Of a stretch of DNA of 45,063 bases, positions 24,899 through 33,939 are shown one piece after another (positions within the stretch are counted from its first letter, which is position 1; the number at the start of each line of letters is the position of its first letter). The DNA is from Schlesneria paludicola DSM 18645 (GTDB taxonomy: Bacteria; Planctomycetota; Planctomycetia; Planctomycetales; Planctomycetaceae): positions 1-45,063 of the forward strand of contig CAMCMU010000041.1 of NCBI GenBank assembly GCA_945876035.1, in the 5' to 3' direction. The translations under genes were made by a program, and so were the position numbers. The notes beneath the pieces are model-generated. The model did not search any database. It saw only the letters and a program-made list of their open reading frames with translations, and was not told the DNA's origin.

Positions 24899-25612
24899 GG
24901 CGAGTCCGATCTTCTTCCGGTGAGACAAGACGCAGCGAGCGAGTCATCCGATGGGATTGAGAAGCTGGTTTTCTGAGGGAAAGAGGGATTGGTCTGTGAA
25001 GAACAAGATCGCGGCCCATGCTTAAGCCAGATCGACCCGCTTCTGTTTTTGCCCCATGTGGTCAAACGAATTTCCGTCTTTTGTCTTGCCATCGGCCGAC
25101 TTGAAAATTGAGACGGAGGCGCCGATTCGGTGACGTCGTTCAGAGGTCTGCACTCACAGCCTATCGATTTTACTCGGCGACCCGACCCACATCGGCTACC
25201 TTTGTAGGTGAGGCTGAATTCCTAGGCAATGGCGACCAGAAAGCCGCCACTTCGATGCAGCATCATTCGGATCGAGCGGAAACGGTCACCGTAGACGATC
25301 ATTTTGGCCATCCATGAGCCACCCCGCAGGCCAAATCTCTGAGTTAATGCGAGCCGATACGATCCAGTTTTCATTGGCGAATGCTTGTGAGTGGCGAATT
25401 GCGCCTACGACGTGAGATCTCAACGGGGACGCTCTTCCAGTAGTTTTCGGTACACGGCAGCAGCGACCACATGGACGCTGGCGTTAGCGATTCCTAAAAT
25501 TTGCGCTACGCCTGTTTTCCTCCGCGACAGAGCCTTCCCTGACACAGCCGCGGATTTTCACCGTCGATCGACATTGACTCTCAATGTTCTTCACCCGCCA
25601 TGGAGTCGAGGC
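24899..25612. other. Divergent intergenic region with a gene remnant
   Basis: This 714-base region separates the divergently transcribed glycosyltransferase and protease genes. Apart from the SUMF1-like remnant at 25222-25340, listed separately, it contains no convincing gene. A plus-strand frame extends from 25391 into the protease gene, but its first 74 codons have no signal peptide or similarity. Confidence 0.4.
25222..25340 (-). pseudogene. Possible C-terminal remnant of a SUMF1-domain gene
   Basis: Minus-strand translation gives RFGLRGGSW, then a region with RFRSIRM, then GGFLVAIA and a stop codon. The RGGSW motif followed about 25-30 residues later by a GF-x-VA ending is the C-terminal signature of SUMF1/FGE-sulfatase domains. 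Nothing of the domain's upstream motifs (GNVWEW, EAEWEYA) is found in frame. This is probably a short fragment of a lost gene. The match is limited to the two motifs. Confidence 0.4.
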
Positions 25613-27862
25613 ATGATTCGTCTCAGGCAGAGTTTTATTCTTGCCAGTCTATTCTGTGTGATTGCGATCGCTTCCGCGGACGAGCGAGACGACAACAAAA
25701 AAGGGCCGTCTGATGTCATCGACCAAACGGTACAACAACTGGCCCCGCAGTTGAAGAAGTCTGTCGTCGTCGTGACATTTCTCGGTCGCGACGGGAAACG
25801 ACAGGGACTAGGATCGGGATTCATCATCGATTCGGAGGGACTGATCGCCACCAACATGCACGTCATCGGCGAGGCACGTTCCATTCAAATTGAGCTGCAA
25901 GATGGCCGGAAATTTGATGCCATCGCCATTCACGCAACCGAGCGGTCACATGATCTTGCAATTCTTCGAATTGCAGCCAGCGGCCTACCCGCACTTCCGC
26001 TGGGAAATTCAAATGACTTGCAGGAGGGACAATCCGTCATGGCGGTGGGAAATCCGATTGGCTTGGAAAGGAGTATTGTCAGTGGCGTCCTGTCTGCGAG
26101 ACGAGAGATTGAAGGTCGAGTGATGTTTCAAGTGGCCCTGCCCATTGAGCGAGGTAATAGTGGCGGACCATTGGTCGATATGAAGGGACGCGTGCAGGGA
26201 ATTTTGACGTTGAAATCGATGAAAACTGAGAATCTTGGATTTGCCATGCCGATCAATGCCCTCAAGCCGCTGTTAGAAAATCCCAATCCGATTCCGATCA
26301 GCCGCTGGCTGACGATAGGCGTCCTCGATCCCGAGGAGTGGACTGTTCTTCCCGGTTGCCGATGGCGGCAACGCTCAGGAAGAATTTTCGTGAGCGACAT
26401 CGGTGTTGGTCTCGGAGGCCGTGCCTTGTGCCTCTCGACACATCCGGTCTTCAGTGGCACTTTCGAAATCGCTGTTCAGGTGAAAATGACGCCGAATGAG
26501 GGTGCTGCCGGCCTCGTATTTCAATCCGATGGTGCAGACCGGCATTACGGATTCTACCCCAGCAATGGCGCCGTTCGGTTGAGTCGATTCGATGGCCCGG
26601 ATGTCTTTTCGTGGAATGTGCTGAAGGAGGTCCGATCTCCGTCACTCCACAAGTCTGGCTGGAATTCTTTGAAGGTACGCGTCGAAAAAGATCGATTCCT
26701 GTGCTATCTCAATGAGGAACTAGTGATCGATGTCACCGACTCCAAACTGGAATCGGGACGCATCGGTTTGTGCAAATTTCGGCAGACGGAGGCTGAGTTT
26801 AGAAACTTTCAGTGTGGTGACAGCCTCGCTTCGGCGAAACCCTCGACGGAACTTCGTGAACGTGTCTCCCAAGTCGTCGACCAACTGACGACAACTGCGG
26901 TTCTGCCGTTTTCGACGAAAACGCTCCCCACGGAGGACGCTACGTTGGACGAACCCGCCGCGATCGAGTTGTTCGAACAGCTCGCCCAGAGGCTGGAACA
27001 ACAGGCCGGCCGTGTCAGACAACATGCGCAGGGTCTTCAACTCCGCAGGACTCTCGCGGAATTGCAGAAGGTGTTGTCGGTAGAGGACGAAAAAAATATT
27101 GATTTGCTACGCGCGGGATTGTTGATTTCCAAACTGGACAATCCCGAATTGGATGTGGAGGCCTATGTTCAAGACGTCGAACGTCACGCCCGACGTGTTG
27201 TGGTTGGTTTTTCCAAAGACACCACGGAACAGGAACGGTTGGCCTCGCTCAATCGTTATCTGTTTGAAGAGCAGGGTTTCCATGGAAGCCGAACGGACTA
27301 TGAAAACCGATCAAACAGCTATTTGAACGAAGTACTCGACGATCGCGAAGGTTTGCCGATTACGTTGTCTGTGTTGTATATGGAACTGGCTCGACGCCTC
27401 GACGTGCGTGTTGTCGGTGTTGGAATGCCACGACACTTCATTGTTCGACACGAGCCGCAGCAGGGAGATTCCCAACTGATTGATGTTTTTGAACGCGGCC
27501 AACAACTTTCCAAAAATCAGGCGAGATCTAAGTTTGAGTCGTTCAGTGACGATCCATGGACCGACTCGTATCTCAACACATCGACTCCACGCGCGATCCT
27601 CGAACGAATGCTCAGAAACCTCTTTGGAACCGCTGCAACGGATGAAGATCCCGAACGCATGCTGCCATACATTGAGGCGATTTTGTTGCTCAATCCCGAA
27701 TCCGCTCGCGACCGTTTTATTCGCGCCGTCATCTGTCATCAGACGCAGCGATGGAATCAGGCTCGCACAGACGTCGAATGGCTGATGTCTCACAATTCGG
27801 AGCTAAACCAACAAGCAATTGAGGATTTGGCCGTCGCGATTGCACGTGATTCTCAGAAGTGA
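25613..27862 (+). CDS. Secreted trypsin-like protease fused to beta-sandwich and SirB1 domains
   Basis: A 749-residue protein. After a signal peptide (1-21) comes a HtrA-like S1C protease domain with the triad His83 (TNMHVIG), Asp114 (SHDLAILRI) and Ser183 (RGNSGGPL), all intact. No PDZ domain follows. Residues about 238-405 instead resemble the DUF1080/LamG-type beta-sandwich (YGFYPSNGAVRLSRFDG, GWNSLKVRVEKDRFLCYLNE). Residues about 490-670 match the SirB1 transglutaminase-like family (LDNPELDVEAYV, NSYLNEVLDDREGLPITLSV, GVGMPRHFIVRH). A TPR-like helical tail ends the protein. The ATG at 25613 has GGAG seven bases upstream and starts directly at the signal peptide. It is probably an extracytoplasmic quality-control or regulatory protease. 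Confidence 0.88.
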   Translation: MIRLRQSFILASLFCVIAIASADERDDNKKGPSDVIDQTVQQLAPQLKKSVVVVTFLGRDGKRQGLGSGFIIDSEGLIATNMHVIGEARSIQIELQDGRKFDAIAIHATERSHDLAILRIAASGLPALPLGNSNDLQEGQSVMAVGNPIGLERSIVSGVLSARREIEGRVMFQVALPIERGNSGGPLVDMKGRVQGILTLKSMKTENLGFAMPINALKPLLENPNPIPISRWLTIGVLDPEEWTVLPGCRWRQRSGRIFVSDIGVGLGGRALCLSTHPVFSGTFEIAVQVKMTPNEGAAGLVFQSDGADRHYGFYPSNGAVRLSRFDGPDVFSWNVLKEVRSPSLHKSGWNSLKVRVEKDRFLCYLNEELVIDVTDSKLESGRIGLCKFRQTEAEFRNFQCGDSLASAKPSTELRERVSQVVDQLTTTAVLPFSTKTLPTEDATLDEPAAIELFEQLAQRLEQQAGRVRQHAQGLQLRRTLAELQKVLSVEDEKNIDLLRAGLLISKLDNPELDVEAYVQDVERHARRVVVGFSKDTTEQERLASLNRYLFEEQGFHGSRTDYENRSNSYLNEVLDDREGLPITLSVLYMELARRLDVRVVGVGMPRHFIVRHEPQQGDSQLIDVFERGQQLSKNQARSKFESFSDDPWTDSYLNTSTPRAILERMLRNLFGTAATDEDPERMLPYIEAILLLNPESARDRFIRAVICHQTQRWNQARTDVEWLMSHNSELNQQAIEDLAVAIARDSQK

Positions 27863-28624: not shown

Positions 28625-28653
28625 TTGACAGAAAACAGGATTATGATTATATT
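28625..28653 (+). promoter_or_regulatory. Consensus sigma70-type promoter of metal ABC operon
   Basis: TTGACA (28625-28630), a spacer of exactly 17 bases, and TATATT (28648-28653) match the consensus promoter in 11 of 12 hexamer positions. The predicted start site is near 28660, inside the adjacent palindrome. The transcript would have a leader of about 88 bases before the lipoprotein ATG. Confidence 0.75.
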
Positions 28654-28654
28654 T

Positions 28655-28686
28655 TGATCAATAAAAATAAATATTTTTATTGATCA
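28655..28686 (+). promoter_or_regulatory. 32-bp palindromic operator candidate
   Basis: TGATCAATAAAAATA (28655-28669) and its exact reverse complement (28672-28686) flank the central AA. The two 15-bp arms match perfectly. The palindrome starts two bases after the -10 hexamer and covers the predicted transcription start, the classic placement for a repressor site. Each arm ends in TGATCA. An intrinsic terminator is unlikely because the stem is extremely AT-rich and sits at the promoter. The likely ligand is a dimeric metal-responsive regulator such as a DtxR/MntR- or Fur/Zur-type protein. Confidence 0.7.
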
Positions 28687-28747: not shown

Positions 28748-29812
28748 ATGAAGCCGTTTGCCCGAGCGTCGGTTTTTTTTTCTGTTCTGATTTTCTTTCT
28801 AAATCTGCTCATTGGTTGCGGTGGAACCACGTTTCAACGTGAAGGGGCTGCGGCCTCGGCCACCGCAGAAAAAAAACCCGAATCAACAATCCCTTCGAGA
28901 AAAATCATTACGACCACCGGAATGGTCACAGACATCGTACGGCAAGTCGTCGGCTCCTACGGGCAGGTGTCTGGCCTGATTGAAGCGGGTGGCGATCCGC
29001 ATTTGTTCAAACCGACGCGAGGAGACGTCAAACGACTCTACGAAGCGGATATTGTCTTCTATTCCGGCTTAATTCTTGAAGGACGCATGAGCCAAACGTT
29101 CGAGCAGTTAGCACACGCTGGCAAGCCAGTTTTTGCCGTGACTGAGCGGATTGACCGGGCCGATCTTCGGACGTTTTCTGGGTCGCCAACTCATCCCGAT
29201 CCACATGTCTGGATGGAAGTCGCCAAGTGGAGTGAGTGCGTCCAGCATGTCGCCGAATCACTAGCCGGACTTGATCCGGCTCTCGCCCTTGAATATCACC
29301 GGAACGCGGCGAGATACCTCTTGGAATTGAATCGCTTAGAGGAGTACACAAAGGCTTCAATCGCCTCAATCCCCGAAAAGCATCGCGTTCTGGTAACGGC
29401 GCACGATGCCTTTGGGTACTTCTCACAGGCCTATGGCATTCCGGTGATGTCGGTCCAAGGCATCTCGACAGTCGCGGAAGCAGGCGTTCTCGACGTCAAT
29501 CGATTGGTCGATTTTCTCGTGGCGAGAAAATTGCCGGCGATCTTTGTTGAGTCGAGTGTAAATGCGAAAAATATCCAAGCGGTGATTGAGGGGGTTGCTT
29601 CACGTGGTGTGACGGTTCGCATTGGAGGCGAGCTTTTTTCGGATGCGATGGGACGAGAGGGAACCTACGAAGGGACTTATCTCGGCATGATCGACCACAA
29701 TGCGACGACAATCACTCGCGCTCTCGGAGGCACGGCTCCCGCGGGGGGACTTCACGGAAAACTCAGTGGCCATTCCTTACAGAACGTGCCTACGGAAGGG
29801 GTCACAGAATGA
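28748..29812 (+). CDS. Metal ABC transporter substrate-binding lipoprotein (TroA/MntC type)
   Basis: A 354-residue cluster A-I metal-binding protein delivering Mn2+, Zn2+ or Fe2+ to the permease. The lipobox LLIGC places the lipidated Cys at 24. Predicted metal ligands are His85 (GGDPHLFKPT), His153 (DPHVWME), His219 (TAHDAFGYF) and Asp299 (ELFSDAMG). Their order and spacing match the His-His-His-Asp set of Treponema TroA. The His-rich loop typical of ZnuA is absent, so manganese or iron is at least as likely as zinc. It is the first gene of the operon, has GGAG about ten bases before the ATG, and its stop overlaps the next frame as ATGA. Confidence 0.93.
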   Translation: MKPFARASVFFSVLIFFLNLLIGCGGTTFQREGAAASATAEKKPESTIPSRKIITTTGMVTDIVRQVVGSYGQVSGLIEAGGDPHLFKPTRGDVKRLYEADIVFYSGLILEGRMSQTFEQLAHAGKPVFAVTERIDRADLRTFSGSPTHPDPHVWMEVAKWSECVQHVAESLAGLDPALALEYHRNAARYLLELNRLEEYTKASIASIPEKHRVLVTAHDAFGYFSQAYGIPVMSVQGISTVAEAGVLDVNRLVDFLVARKLPAIFVESSVNAKNIQAVIEGVASRGVTVRIGGELFSDAMGREGTYEGTYLGMIDHNATTITRALGGTAPAGGLHGKLSGHSLQNVPTEGVTE

Positions 29813-30054
29813 ACCGCGCCACAGGGGATGATGGAGTGGCCGGCTCATGGAGGAATCGCGTTCATGAAATCGTCACGCAGGTCGTTGGGTGGAGACCGGC
29901 GGAGATCCGCCGAAGATGTTGTGACGCACCGGTGGAGTCTCAGAAGATTCGTAGACCTCGGCATGAGTTTCGAGAGACGACGACCGAATATGGTTCCTGC
30001 GACTCTGCCTCTGACGATTGGCGATCAATTGTTTTTCAGAGGGAAGTCGAATGA
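29809..30054 (+). CDS. Small ORF coupled between lipoprotein and ATPase genes
   Basis: An 81-residue frame whose ATG overlaps the lipoprotein stop (ATGA) and whose stop overlaps the ATPase start (ATGA). This is the pattern of translational coupling in tightly packed operons. The protein is polar and Arg-rich with three cysteines (a CC pair near residue 38), no membrane segment and no recognised family. Without it, a 240-base untranslated gap would sit inside the operon. The overlap is the main evidence. Coding character is not strong, so it may still be chance. Confidence 0.45.
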
Positions 30055-30806
30055 GTGTTCCGCCTCTTACAATCCACGACATGACGGTCGCCTATCGTGG
30101 CCGGCCGGTCTTATGGGATGTGGACTACGACGCACCGGCTGGGAAACTTGTTGCGATCGTCGGACCGAACGGTGCGGGGAAAAGCACGTTGATTAAGGCG
30201 GCTCTGGAACTGGTGCCCCGCGCATCAGGTGATGTATCCTTCTTCGGAAAAACCTATCGCGAGATGCGGTCGCGAATCGGATACGTTCCTCAGCGGACAA
30301 GCGTGGATTGGGACTTTCCGATTGACGCACTTGGCGTCGTCGTCATGGGCCTGTACCGTCAGATTGGCTGGTTTCAACCGGTGTCACGTCGGTACCGGAA
30401 ACAAGCACTCGCGGCACTGGAGCGAGTGGGTTTGGCAGAGTTTGCCTCAAGGCAGATCAGCCAGCTTTCCGGTGGTCAACAGCAGCGAGTTTTCCTCGCC
30501 AGAGCTCTCGTTCAGGAGGCAGATCTTTATCTCATGGATGAGCCATTCGCCGGAGTTGATGCCGCCACAGAACGGGCCATCGTCGAACTACTACGCGATC
30601 TCAGAACGGCTGGCAAGACGGCGATCGTAATCCACCATGACTTGCAGACGGTGACCGAGTATTTCGATGAGGTGTTGCTGCTGAACATGCGTCGGATCGC
30701 CTCCGGACCTGTCGAGCAAGTCTTTACTACGGAAAATCTGAGACGGACCTACGGCGGAAAATTGGCGTTGCTTGATCAGGTCGGACATCGGATGAGCGGC
30801 AAATAG
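30051..30806 (+). CDS. Metal ABC transporter ATP-binding protein (MntB/TroB type)
   Basis: A 251-residue ATPase subunit of the metal importer. Walker [10 protein letters not shown] (38-46), Q-loop [11 protein letters not shown] (80-90, a sequence characteristic of the Mn/Zn/Fe transporter ATPases), signature LSGGQQQR (139-146), Walker B LYLMDEP (159-165) and H-loop IHHD (194-197). The ATG at 30051 follows the excellent ribosome binding site AGAGGGAAG and overlaps the preceding small ORF's stop. A TTG 33 bases upstream is in frame but less likely. It acts on the cytoplasmic side of the membrane with the two downstream permeases. Confidence 0.95.
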
Positions 30807-30955
30807 ATTGGAGCCGAGAGAACCGGCCACCGGTTGCATCTGAAATATCAGCAGGTCCTGACTCAAACGCAAACCGAGACACGTGAGGAATGCTTGAACC
30901 TTGTTCAACGCGTGTTGCGAGCGAGACGCCCTGAAAGAGTAACGGAGCGACGAAG

Positions 30956-32341
30956 ATGATTGCGGCGAACGATCTCCTGCGAGTCCTGACGTTACAGGAT
31001 TACAATACGCGCGTCGTGCTGCTCGGGACGGTTCTGTTCGGAGTTTGTGGTGGAGTGGTCGGGGCATTCATGCTCCTGCGAAAAAAAGCACTCGTGGGCG
31101 ATGTCGCCAGCCATGCCGCATTACCGGGAATCGGATTGTCCTATTTGATTTTGGAGTCACTCACCCCGGGGTCTGGAAAGTCACCGCATTGGCTGTTGGC
31201 CGGTGCCGGTCTGACCGCGGCCGGAGGGTTGTTAGGAACACGGCTCATTCAACGCATTCGATTGATCAAGGAAGATGCTGCGATGGGAATTGTGCTCAGC
31301 ATTTTCTTCGGATTTGGTATCGTTTTGCTGACCATTATACAGCGATTACCAACGGGCAGCGCCGGATTGAACGAGTTCATCTTCGGTAAGGCAGCTGCAC
31401 TCACAGAGAGCGACGTGACCTCGATTGTGATCGCCAGTGTCTTGGTGCTTGTCGTCTGCTGCGCGATGTACAAGGAATTCTCTGTGCTGTGCTTCGACGA
31501 GTCTTATGCGGCCGTGCTCGGTTGGCCCGTGGCCAGGCTCGATCTCTTGCTGACATCACTCGTCGTTGTCGTCACAGTGATCGGGATTCCTAGCGTCGGG
31601 TTGCTGCTCGTGGTGGCCCAATTGGTCATCCCGCCCACGGCTGCAAGATTCTGGACGAATCGACTGGGGCCGATGGTTGTCATCTCGGGTTTGATCGGTG
31701 CCTTGAGCGCAGCGGTGGGAATCGTTGCCAGCGCCTGCGTACCCAACCTCGCTGCCGGAGCCATCATTGTCCTCGCCGGAACGGCCATCTTCGCGGTGAG
31801 CCTGCTTTGGGGCTGGCAGCGCGGCGTGGTATGGCAATGGCTGCAACAGCGGGAGACGCATCTTCACATCGGCCAAATCGACCTGCTGCGTGCCTGTTTT
31901 GAAGTGATTGAGAGCGTTGCAGAGCGGACCGAAATGGGGAACAATTTGCCAATCAGTCCTGCGACAATGACGGCGGCAGCGGATCGCGATCTGACCGCGA
32001 TTCCGATTTCGCGTGAATCGTTGTTTGGCAGTAGAACCTGGTCGGCACCCCGATTCGCCCGAGTGTTGGCGGGTGCCCTACGCGAATCCCTCATCCGCCT
32101 TGATGCCGAGAACCACGTTCGTCTGACGAATGCCGGGGCCCGTCGAGCAAAACGGGCCACCAGAAATCATCGGCTGTGGGAACTGTATTTGATCCACTTT
32201 GCCGATACGGCCCCTAGTCGTGTCGACCGAGAGGCGGATCAAATTGAACATGTTCTTGAACCGGCATTGATCGAGCAACTGGAATCGTTGCTTGATCAAC
32301 GGATTGCATGTGTGAAGATTCCAGAGAGTCCGCACGAATAA
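30956..32341 (+). CDS. Metal ABC permease fused to a C-terminal DtxR/MntR-like domain
   Basis: A 461-residue protein. Residues 1-285 are an ABC-3 family membrane subunit (MntC/TroC/ZnuB) with 7-9 helices, including RKKALVGDVASHAALPGIGL and GIPSVGLLLVVAQLVIPPTA. Residues about 303-448 are cytosolic and resemble a DtxR/MntR repressor. They contain a winged-helix-like segment (WSAPRFARVLAGALRESLIR, then HVRLTNAGARRAKRATR) and the motif HRLWELYL (405-412). DREADQIEHVLEP follows, with Asp428, Glu431 and His432 where MntR has Glu99, Glu102 and His103. A linker of low complexity (325-350) interrupts the first helices. Chlamydia YtgCR has the same architecture and its repressor half is released by cleavage. 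The ribosome binding site GGAG precedes the ATG. Confidence 0.9.
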   Translation: MIAANDLLRVLTLQDYNTRVVLLGTVLFGVCGGVVGAFMLLRKKALVGDVASHAALPGIGLSYLILESLTPGSGKSPHWLLAGAGLTAAGGLLGTRLIQRIRLIKEDAAMGIVLSIFFGFGIVLLTIIQRLPTGSAGLNEFIFGKAAALTESDVTSIVIASVLVLVVCCAMYKEFSVLCFDESYAAVLGWPVARLDLLLTSLVVVVTVIGIPSVGLLLVVAQLVIPPTAARFWTNRLGPMVVISGLIGALSAAVGIVASACVPNLAAGAIIVLAGTAIFAVSLLWGWQRGVVWQWLQQRETHLHIGQIDLLRACFEVIESVAERTEMGNNLPISPATMTAAADRDLTAIPISRESLFGSRTWSAPRFARVLAGALRESLIRLDAENHVRLTNAGARRAKRATRNHRLWELYLIHFADTAPSRVDREADQIEHVLEPALIEQLESLLDQRIACVKIPESPHE

Positions 32342-32460
32342 ATGAATCACAACACACATTCGATGCACTCAACAATTGAAAAGCCTTGCCTGAACGGCAT
32401 CGTTTATTCGGCGTTTTCACGATCCACAAAGTGTGGCGGGTTTGTTAAAGAGGCATCCCC

Positions 32461-33939
32461 ATGATTTCTGAATTCCTCCAGCGTCTCTCCGACTGGAAAG
32501 CCTTTGATACATGGATTGCCTTGACGGGTGCGATGGCGGCGATGGCGTGTGCCTTGCCGGGTGTGTGGTTGTTTCTCCGCAGACAGAGTCTCTTGGGAGA
32601 CGCGTTGAGTCATGCCGTATTACCCGGAATTGTCGTTGCATTTCTGAGTTTCAATATGTTTTCTCAGTCGCCCGCTCAGGCGAATTCCGGCCTCTCGAAA
32701 ACGAATTTTGACCAGAGTGAGTATGTTGCGGCTGAAGATTTGGTTCGCGTCGCACGACGTCAATTGATGCTGTTTTTTGGCGCCGCGTTGTCCGGTGTCG
32801 TGGCCGCGTTCCTCTCAGAATTGATTCAGCGTTGCTGTCGAATTGATCGTAGTGCTGCACTCGGTGTGGTCTTTACATCAATGTTTGCCTTGGGTTTGTT
32901 GCTGATTCGGTTATTCGCCCACAACGCCCACATTGATGCCGACTGTGTCTTGTACGGCAATTTAGAAACAACCGTGACTGACGTTCTCGCGGGAACCAAC
33001 ATTCCGCGTGGGGTCGTTGTGAACGCCGCCATGTTTTTGTGCAATAGTTTTCTGGTCGTTGTGTTCTTCAAAGAATTGCGGCTGGCAACGTTTGATGCGG
33101 AGTTGGCCGCGTCCATGGGATTGGGACCGACTGTGATTTCTCTGGTGTTGATGTCTGTGACTGCCGCCACGGTCGTTGCGGCATTTGAATCCGTCGGCTC
33201 CATTCTTGTCATTGCGATGCTGATCGTACCGGCAGCCACCGCTCGGCTATTCACCGATCGGCTGTCGATTCTCTTGGTTCTCGCCCCACTAATCGCCGGC
33301 TGTGGAGCACTTGCTGGCCACGCAGCCGCGCTGACGTTTCCGGCGATCATCTGTTCGCGAATTGGTCTGCGAAATATCGAAGATGCGAGCACTGCCGGAA
33401 TGATGGCGGTCACGACCGGCATTCTTTTTCTGCTGGCCGTTATTGCGAGCCCTCGACACGGGTTGGCTCGCGCGATTTTTGATCGATTGAGACTGCAGGT
33501 ACGAATAGCCAGTGAAGATTTTCTTGGTCAGTTGTATCGCCGAGAAGAATCGAAGCGGACGCATCTTGATATCGCAGGCTGGAGAACGGACGTTCGCCAA
33601 TCGATCGAGAAAATTGCCGGAAAGCGATCACCGCGCGCCGGCTGGGCGAAGTGGCTTGGCCGTCAAAACCTGTTGCATCGATCGCTGATTCGAGTGACCT
33701 CTGCGGGTGATGAGTTGACTAACTCAGGTCGTCGATTGGCAACCGGCGTTGTTCGTTCTCATCGATTGTGGGAGTCCTACATGGCTAGGCACTTTGATCT
33801 GCCTCACGAGCAACTTCATGCAACAGCCGAGCGTATCGAACACTTTCTCAGCCTTGACCTACAGGCTGAGCTTGCCGCAGAACTCAATCAACCCTCGATC
33901 GATCCGCAGGGGAAGTCAATCCCATCGGAGGCCGATTGA
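32461..33939 (+). CDS. Second metal ABC permease with a DtxR/MntR-like C-terminal domain
   Basis: A 492-residue partner permease. Residues 1-330 hold the ABC-3 membrane domain (RRQSLLGDALSHAVLPGIVV, SVGSILVIAMLIVPAATARL), with an extra polar loop at about 68-98. The cytosolic tail, about 360-475, again resembles DtxR/MntR. It has a winged-helix-like stretch (NLLHRSLIRVTSAGDELTNS, then GRRLATGVVR), HRLWESYM (434-441) and HATAERIEHFLS (453-464), with Glu457, Glu460 and His461 matching the MntR metal ligands. The N-terminal helix-turn-helix is shorter than in the first permease and may no longer bind DNA. AAAGAGG precedes the ATG. The two permeases probably form a heterodimer carrying two regulatory domains. 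Confidence 0.9.
   Translation: MISEFLQRLSDWKAFDTWIALTGAMAAMACALPGVWLFLRRQSLLGDALSHAVLPGIVVAFLSFNMFSQSPAQANSGLSKTNFDQSEYVAAEDLVRVARRQLMLFFGAALSGVVAAFLSELIQRCCRIDRSAALGVVFTSMFALGLLLIRLFAHNAHIDADCVLYGNLETTVTDVLAGTNIPRGVVVNAAMFLCNSFLVVVFFKELRLATFDAELAASMGLGPTVISLVLMSVTAATVVAAFESVGSILVIAMLIVPAATARLFTDRLSILLVLAPLIAGCGALAGHAAALTFPAIICSRIGLRNIEDASTAGMMAVTTGILFLLAVIASPRHGLARAIFDRLRLQVRIASEDFLGQLYRREESKRTHLDIAGWRTDVRQSIEKIAGKRSPRAGWAKWLGRQNLLHRSLIRVTSAGDELTNSGRRLATGVVRSHRLWESYMARHFDLPHEQLHATAERIEHFLSLDLQAELAAELNQPSIDPQGKSIPSEAD

Follow-up and report, generated by a model that had tools for sequence, protein, structure and literature searches.

DtxR-like tails on both permeases of a planctomycete metal ABC importer: candidate built-in metal sensors beside a free regulator

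A 45,063-nucleotide stretch of the Schlesneria paludicola DSM 18645 genome (assembly GCA_945876035.1, contig CAMCMU010000041.1, positions 1 to 45,063, forward strand; hereafter the window, meaning this whole stretch of DNA) carries at 28748-33939 a metal ABC operon, consisting of a TroA-like binding protein, an ATPase and two ABC-3 permeases, P1 and P2. Both permeases end in a DtxR/MntR-like tail, as a preliminary description of this DNA had proposed, and its coordinates for the two genes were correct (Table 1). Computation supports the fold of these tails, their ligand-type residues and the conservation of these residues, the occurrence of double tails in relatives, a poorly conserved recognition helix, the presence of a free regulator in the genome, and an association between that regulator and boxes upstream of the operons. 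The planctomycete fused domain has kept the features of a metal sensor and not a well-conserved DNA-reading helix, and is often doubled on both permeases; nearly all of the genomes concerned also encode a free regulator, and in most cases a box matching that regulator precedes the operon. The reading that best fits these results, to which we give an even chance, is that a built-in pair of metal-sensing tails gates import, transcription being left to the free DtxR.

Two DtxR-type modules fused to the permeases

From its gene content, the operon is predicted to encode a divalent-metal ABC importer of the TroABCD/PsaABC type. As in the TroABCD, PsaABC and ZnuABC systems, a substrate-binding protein (SBP), an ATPase and two ABC-3 permeases share one operon, and the membrane part of both permease models matched PsaBC (7kyp) in Foldseek; none of the NCBIfam models scored above cut-off for either permease.

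The Pfam family PF02742 (Fe_dep_repr_C) was found in both tails above its curated cut-off (P1 residues 391-449, E = 2.5e-13; P2 residues 420-488, E = 1.8e-19). The N-terminal helix-turn-helix family PF01325 matched neither tail even at E = 10, in a search where HMMER filters discard most weak matches, in contrast to the free DtxR of the same genome, which it matched at 9e-11. The profile search suggested earlier therefore succeeded for the second domain and not for the first. AlphaFold models of the single chains, built from alignments of 34 (P1) and 33 (P2) sequences, reached pLDDT 90.0 and pTM 0.84 for P1, and 88.3 and 0.82 for P2. In both, the last transmembrane helix leads into a long helix that holds helix 1 of a winged helix-turn-helix (wHTH); helices 2 and 3 and a wing of two strands complete this domain, and the metal-binding and dimerisation domain adds three more helices. 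In Foldseek, the tails matched IdeR, DtxR and DR2539 along some 140 columns, with TMt up to 0.83 for P1. Because of this fold and these matches, both tails are modelled as complete two-domain DtxR-type modules, wHTH plus metal-binding/dimerisation domain, rather than as an unrelated fold, despite PF01325 being undetected by sequence. The HRLWE and D/E-x-I-E-H motifs noted earlier were found in both tails, and their chance occurrence is ruled out by the PF02742 matches, the AlphaFold models and the Foldseek matches. The P2 tail additionally carries a DPQGKSIP element (Table 1), which resembles the DPHGxxIP that the genome's free DtxR has following its own domain 2. The C-termini of the permeases would lie in the cytosol.

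Ligand-type residues, judged by residue type in an alignment, occupy all seven metal-binding positions of DtxR, which we take to be M10, H79, E83, H98, C102, E105 and H106: they read D-H-E-D-D-E-H in P1 and D-H-E-H-E-E-H in P2. They rank among the best-conserved tail residues in the planctomycete family set. Among the 34 P1 sequences, H405 is kept in 30, E409 in 34, D424 in 32, D428 in 31, and E431 and H432 in 33 each, with D (17), H (13) or N (3) at position 309; among the 33 P2 sequences, H434, E438, E460 and H461 are invariant, H453 is kept in 32 and D353 in 29, and at position 457 there are 18 sequences with E and nine with H. The tails would be expected to bind metal. At the helix-1 ligand 309 (window 31880-31882) and its equivalents, H is seemingly commoner in genomes with MntR and D in genomes with the family DtxR, a split that possibly reflects either metal preference or descent.

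The wHTH part of the tails presents a different picture. The 'recognition' helix h3 has a mean Jensen-Shannon divergence (JSD) of 0.30 in P2 (0/18 columns above 0.6; the bare permease L069_P2 was left out of this set) and of 0.39 in P1 (2/16, W362 and R366), whereas in the free DtxR of the same family (n = 30) this helix is nearly invariant, with a mean of 0.69 and 11/14 columns above 0.6. The metal helices h4 and h5 are conserved in the P1 and P2 tails (mean JSD 0.53-0.59), and in the free DtxR too. Mean pairwise identity in the P1/P2 tails is 0.29/0.23 for the wHTH and 0.53/0.48 for the metal domain, against 0.69/0.78 for the free DtxR.

A free regulator and the boxes upstream of the operons

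The operon holds no separate regulator gene, as was stated in the preliminary description, but the genome does: a PF02742 search of the genome (completeness 96.85%) returned the P1 and P2 tails, one stand-alone DtxR of 223 aa on another contig (L007:5319-5990) with PF01325, PF02742 and FeoA domains, and nothing else. The absence of a regulator is thereby ruled out at the genome level. More broadly, the free-regulator profile matches 61 of the 62 planctomycete genomes examined, and 82 of the 135 distinct operons examined, the window operon not among them, have a separate DtxR or MntR gene no more than 2 kb away.

Two classes of boxes occur upstream of the operons, TTTTGA-N4-TCAAAA (D-box) and TGTAGC-N4-GCTACA (M-box), the patterns having been drawn up after palindromes were seen in the same upstream regions. 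Regulator classes were set by hand, M (MntR) requiring a profile match at E <1e-40 (plus G029, counted as M on a fragmentary match of 37 residues at the edge of a contig) and D (DtxR) a weaker match within an open frame at least about 220 aa long. Of the 61 planctomycete operons whose stretch includes SBP and ATPase, 57 entered the comparison and four (L071, L137, L141 and L142) were left out. Box class follows the class of the free regulator. The 33 operons of D-genomes, the window included, comprise 25 with a D-box, none with an M-box and eight with neither; conversely, the 16 operons of M-genomes comprise 12 with an M-box, none with a D-box and four with neither. Three genomes have both regulators, and show two M-boxes and one D-box, while the five of unclear class show neither box. 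Fisher's test of box class against regulator class gives P = 5e-10, a value that is not independent of descent; in a descent-corrected test significance was out of reach, with too few independent pairs. In L052 the permeases group with the D-type (support 87), yet the genome has MntR and the operon an M-box. Within the S. paludicola genome itself, D-boxes with up to one mismatch are in modest excess, at 24 places versus nine for a control pattern.

Upstream of the window operon, a putative D-box overlaps a perfect inverted repeat (Table 1), whose sequence occurs only once in the genome at up to three mismatches and which is likely an operator. The genome's free DtxR would bind here, at about 28652-28686. 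The sigma-70-like promoter at 28625..28653 has limited weight, as the scan found three sites overall versus a mean of 3.5 in shuffled sequences, that is, no excess. Further upstream in the window, an open reading frame (ORF) at 25391-27862 combines trypsin-like peptidase, 3-keto-disaccharide hydrolase-like, transglutaminase-like and TPR stretches.

Table 1. Features of the metal ABC operon, its control region and the two permease tails (window coordinates).
Feature	Coordinates	Strand	Evidence and remarks
Sigma-70-like promoter, TTGACA - 17 - TATATT	28625..28653	+	consensus scan, 11/12 matches
Putative DtxR-type operator (D-box) TTTTGATCAATAAAAA, 1 mismatch to TTTTGANNNNTCAAAA	28652..28667	+	0/60 shuffles equal it
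Perfect inverted repeat, 15-bp arms, 2-nt spacer, 32 bp total	28655..28686	.	overlaps D-box, directly 3' of promoter
Substrate-binding protein, TroA/PsaA type (ZnuA family)	28748..29812	+	PF01297 5.9e-70; best PDB match TroA 1.6e-71
ABC ATPase	30051..30806	+	PF00005 3.5e-29; chosen start, longest ORF begins at 30018
Permease P1 with C-terminal DtxR-like tail, 461 aa	30956..32341	+	ABC-3 2.6e-54
P1 tail wHTH, residues 307-391	31874..32128	+	AlphaFold DSSP; helix 1 within long helix 291-328; 'recognition' helix 362-377
P1 tail metal-binding/dimerisation domain, residues 392-449	32129..32302	+	PF02742; ligand columns
P1 ligand-type residues			H405 E409 D424 D428 E431 H432, plus D309 in helix 1
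Permease P2 with C-terminal DtxR-like tail, 492 aa	32461..33939	+	ABC-3 3.8e-40
P2 tail wHTH, residues 348-420	33502..33720	+	model; helix 1 within long helix 335-368; 'recognition' helix 390-407
P2 tail metal-binding/dimerisation domain, residues 421-476	33721..33888	+	PF02742; ligand columns
P2 ligand-type residues			H434 E438 H453 E457 E460 H461, plus D353 in helix 1
P2 DPQGKSIP element	33901..33924	+	D481, P482, G484, I487, P488 invariant in 33 P2 sequences

Distribution, pairing and descent of the tails

The survey of single versus double fusions called for in the preliminary description was run on the planctomycetes, where the double fusion proved real and recurrent. By hand count of 138 genomes, 66 have an ABC-3 match at E 1e-25, and 31 of these carry two full tails, so that the double fusion is not unique to this genome. 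The remainder have a full P1 tail with a wHTH-sized P2 tail (6), one fused permease only (7), a bare P1 with a short P2 tail (2), or bare permeases (20). PF02742 is present in 60/61 genomes of the family. The 27 family operons that show SBP and ATPase, the window operon counted, divide into 22 with two full tails, one with a tail on P1 only, and four with a fused P1 and P2 outside the stretch.

A wider genome scan yielded at least 80 loci, from 561 confirmed of 592 candidate stretches; for its query, 24 divergent tails gave too variable an alignment, and a closer set worked. At least six phyla have fusions, namely Planctomycetota, Verrucomicrobiota, Kiritimatiellota, Acidobacteriota, Bacteroidota and Sumerlaeota, and one further bin carries the label Thiotrichales. 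Among the matches listed, 75 operons have SBP and ATPase: the commonest full-tail form is a fused P1 with a bare P2 (26/75), two full tails are found in 10/75, and in 28/75, mostly from flavobacteria, each of the two permeases has a short tail (about 90 and 110 aa). PF02742 had no match in the one flavobacterial pair tested, and the ligand-column measure gave no site in these short tails. At flavobacterial loci such as L210 and L226, the short wHTH-sized tails on both permeases are conserved, and a DtxR gene lies upstream in the same direction.

Other arrangements were also observed; L140, a 100-base placeholder stretch, was left out of the annotation. Eight loci read in detail (L120, L121, L126, L129, L136, L137, L141 and L142) have one fused permease, whose tail extends 218-228 aa after the permease and runs past the metal domain, with no second permease in the fetched stretch; a homodimeric transporter from such loci would likewise have two tails. 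The P2 tails of L048, L051 and L071 (243-277 aa) also extend past the metal domain, and their partner P1 lacks one or two ligand residues. In G004, G034, G006, G043 and G028 (L057-L066), P2 is far from P1 or on another contig and keeps its full tail. Finally, L144 (G293, 58-2643) has P1, a DtxR tail and P2 in one 861-aa ORF, with the tail between the permeases.

We then considered the two tails as a pair, in 54 distinct operons where both are aligned over all ligand columns (L159, whose P2 reading is not a tail, was dropped, as was L218, which is the same locus as L052, from all distinct-operon counts). In none of the 54 are both sites lost. When position 102 is counted, both sites are intact in 38, only that of P1 in nine and only that of P2 in seven; when it is ignored, P2 is intact in 54/54 and P1 in 47/54, all nine 'P2 defects' sitting at position 102. 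The P1 tails of these operons read [D/H/N]HEDDEH in 44/54, i.e. with D at 98 and 102, and the P2 tails DHEHxEH in 47/54. Among 65 P1 rows from other operons (some with P2 outside the stretch, one bare), NHEHEEH is found in 40 and xHEDDEH in 13. As read from the alignments, this ligand divergence between P1 and P2 looks like a division of labour within the pair, although it is also clade-structured, the P1 tails of double operons forming a supported group of 25 with two P1-only members, and others falling outside it.

In a quick tree, a branch with SH-aLRT 100 divides all 88 sampled tails, whether from P1, P2 or single permeases, from 18 free regulators, and P1 tails are largely separated from P2 tails. 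This suggests that one tail lineage may have been duplicated together with the permease. An independent origin of the two tails is rejected on this tree, where faster evolution of the tails leaves a long-branch effect possible.

Proposed gating of import, rival explanations and known systems

In the proposed mechanism, the two tails of one transporter would pair with each other, in cis, beneath the membrane; cytosolic metal, when plentiful, would bind the paired tails, and the metal-bound pair would keep the permeases or ATPases from transporting, amounting to feedback (trans-)inhibition, while the free DtxR would handle transcription of the operon at the box at about 28652-28686. Metal is described as locking dimers of DtxR modules in the available text of a review (PMC5599777), and in both models helix 1 of the tail is part of the long helix after the last transmembrane helix, which counts in favour of gating. 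Also in its favour are the lack of any operon among the 54 with both sites lost, the ligand divergence between P1 and P2, the L144 arrangement and the branch that sets the tails apart from free DtxR/MntR. The preliminary description had offered both repressor release and allosteric gating: the former is now disfavoured, and the latter fits best, as an inference. The broader proposal, that P1 and P2 tails form a DtxR-type heterodimer gating import by cytosolic metal, and that most reported fusions are such gates with YtgR as a special case, is tentative, and we would lean somewhat against it.

Several observations count against gating with transcription left to the free regulator. P1 keeps R360, W362 and R366 around helix 3, in a partly conserved R-x-W-S-x-x-R, and the tail wHTHs are net positive (+2.8 versus -0.1 in the free DtxR); DNA binding would also explain both. 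The contrast in the recognition helix could partly be general divergence, since the tails evolve faster than the free regulators, although the metal domain is nonetheless spared. As to the boxes, 17/57 tested operons have no clear box, and the permease tree needs only three box/regulator changes (about three switches), with one supported independent pair. The regulator genes themselves carry their own D-box (up to two mismatches) at 5/28 readable family DtxR genes (of 30) and an M-box at none, and a perfect M-box at 3/10 readable free MntR genes (of 11), one also having a D-box-like site with two mismatches; autoregulation, considered as independent proof of the boxes, thus gave weak support, the own box being there only sometimes. 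Full tails on P1 only are common outside Planctomycetota, so two tails are not required, and a wHTH is of some use even when no metal site goes with it, since flavobacterial relatives keep only short wHTH-sized tails. Finally, YtgR, the closest studied relative, binds DNA and is cleaved off, according to the available parts of PMC6504234 and PMC5599777.

This last point, like the net charge and the helix-3 motif, speaks for an alternative in which one tail or both act as metal-dependent repressors of the operon that encodes them, either after cleavage or while still tethered to the membrane: in Chlamydia, cleaved YtgR is reported to bind the ytg promoter with Fe2+ (PMC6504234, PMC5599777, in the parts available), and both our models show a whole wHTH fold. 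We consider such repression unlikely here, because the recognition helix is poor in P2 and only partial in P1, unlike in the free DtxR, a free regulator is present, and box class tracks that regulator, L052 included; together these weigh against YtgR-like action of the tails, as far as sequences can tell. The position of the L144 tail inside a longer polypeptide likewise counts against a repressor. The tails might instead serve mainly as structural or assembly domains that join P1 to P2 or dock the ATPase, any metal being a structural component and not a signal. Flavobacterial and some acidobacterial and planctomycete permeases keep only wHTH-sized tails, so that a sensor-less wHTH is maintained, but across the planctomycete family set few tail residues are better conserved than those of ligand type, which makes a purely structural role decidedly doubtful.

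Regulator sequestration has models in Mlc/EIICB-Glc and MalT/MalK. By analogy, the tails could act as decoys, forming hetero-dimers with the free DtxR and retaining it at the membrane, which would let the abundance or activity of the transporter tune transcription; the dimerisation domain is kept where the recognition helix is not well conserved, and a free DtxR-family protein is nearly always available (61/62). Double tails, however, co-occur with either DtxR-like or small MntR-like regulators, and with two such distinct types a conserved specific partner is unlikely; the tree also sets the tails well apart from the free regulators. We therefore regard sequestration as highly improbable.

If gating by the tails is correct, a repressor fold that once read DNA would now control a transporter, divalent-metal uptake would be under direct feedback, and the annotation of a widespread family would change. 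Metal-gated import by a built-in DtxR pair is in any case a testable alternative to the membrane-borne-repressor reading taken from Chlamydia, which the review, in its available text, suggests may hold throughout bacteria (PMC5599777).

Among known systems, the nearest is YtgC-YtgR (YtgCR), an ABC permease with a C-terminal DtxR-like domain encoded in the ytgABCD operon (PMC6504234, PMC7755916 and PMC5599777, each as partly available). Both permeases studied here likewise join an ABC-3 permease and a DtxR-like C-terminus in one ORF. YtgR is described in the accessible part of PMC6504234 as the only regulator of its kind in its genome; here, in contrast, a free DtxR is present, both permeases are fused, and the recognition helix is poor in relatives, YtgR being compared by description. 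The preliminary description had held that only one fused permease is well known. YtgCR, also the subject of PMC10972484, does seem to be the only one found studied, but fusions are far from confined to it: orthologous permease-DtxR fusions were reported in 11 phyla by Thompson et al. 2012, as told in the available text of PMC5599777, besides the at least six found here, and they very likely belong to the same broad family. That account, as available, makes no mention of double fusion, partner ligand divergence or co-resident free regulators, and our searches, which covered open-access literature, returned no description of a double fusion or a gating role.

With free DtxR, IdeR and DR2539 the tails share the two-domain fold and the ligand positions; they differ in being tethered to a permease, in ending after domain 2 (window tails), and in their poor recognition helix. 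In MetNI and ModBC, the regulatory part is the C-terminal domain of the ATPase. Here, by contrast, it would be a DtxR module on the membrane subunits. What the systems would have in common is the proposed feedback control of import, MetNI and ModBC being named as regulated transporters, and trans-inhibition being cited for ModBC, in the available text of PMC7367683.

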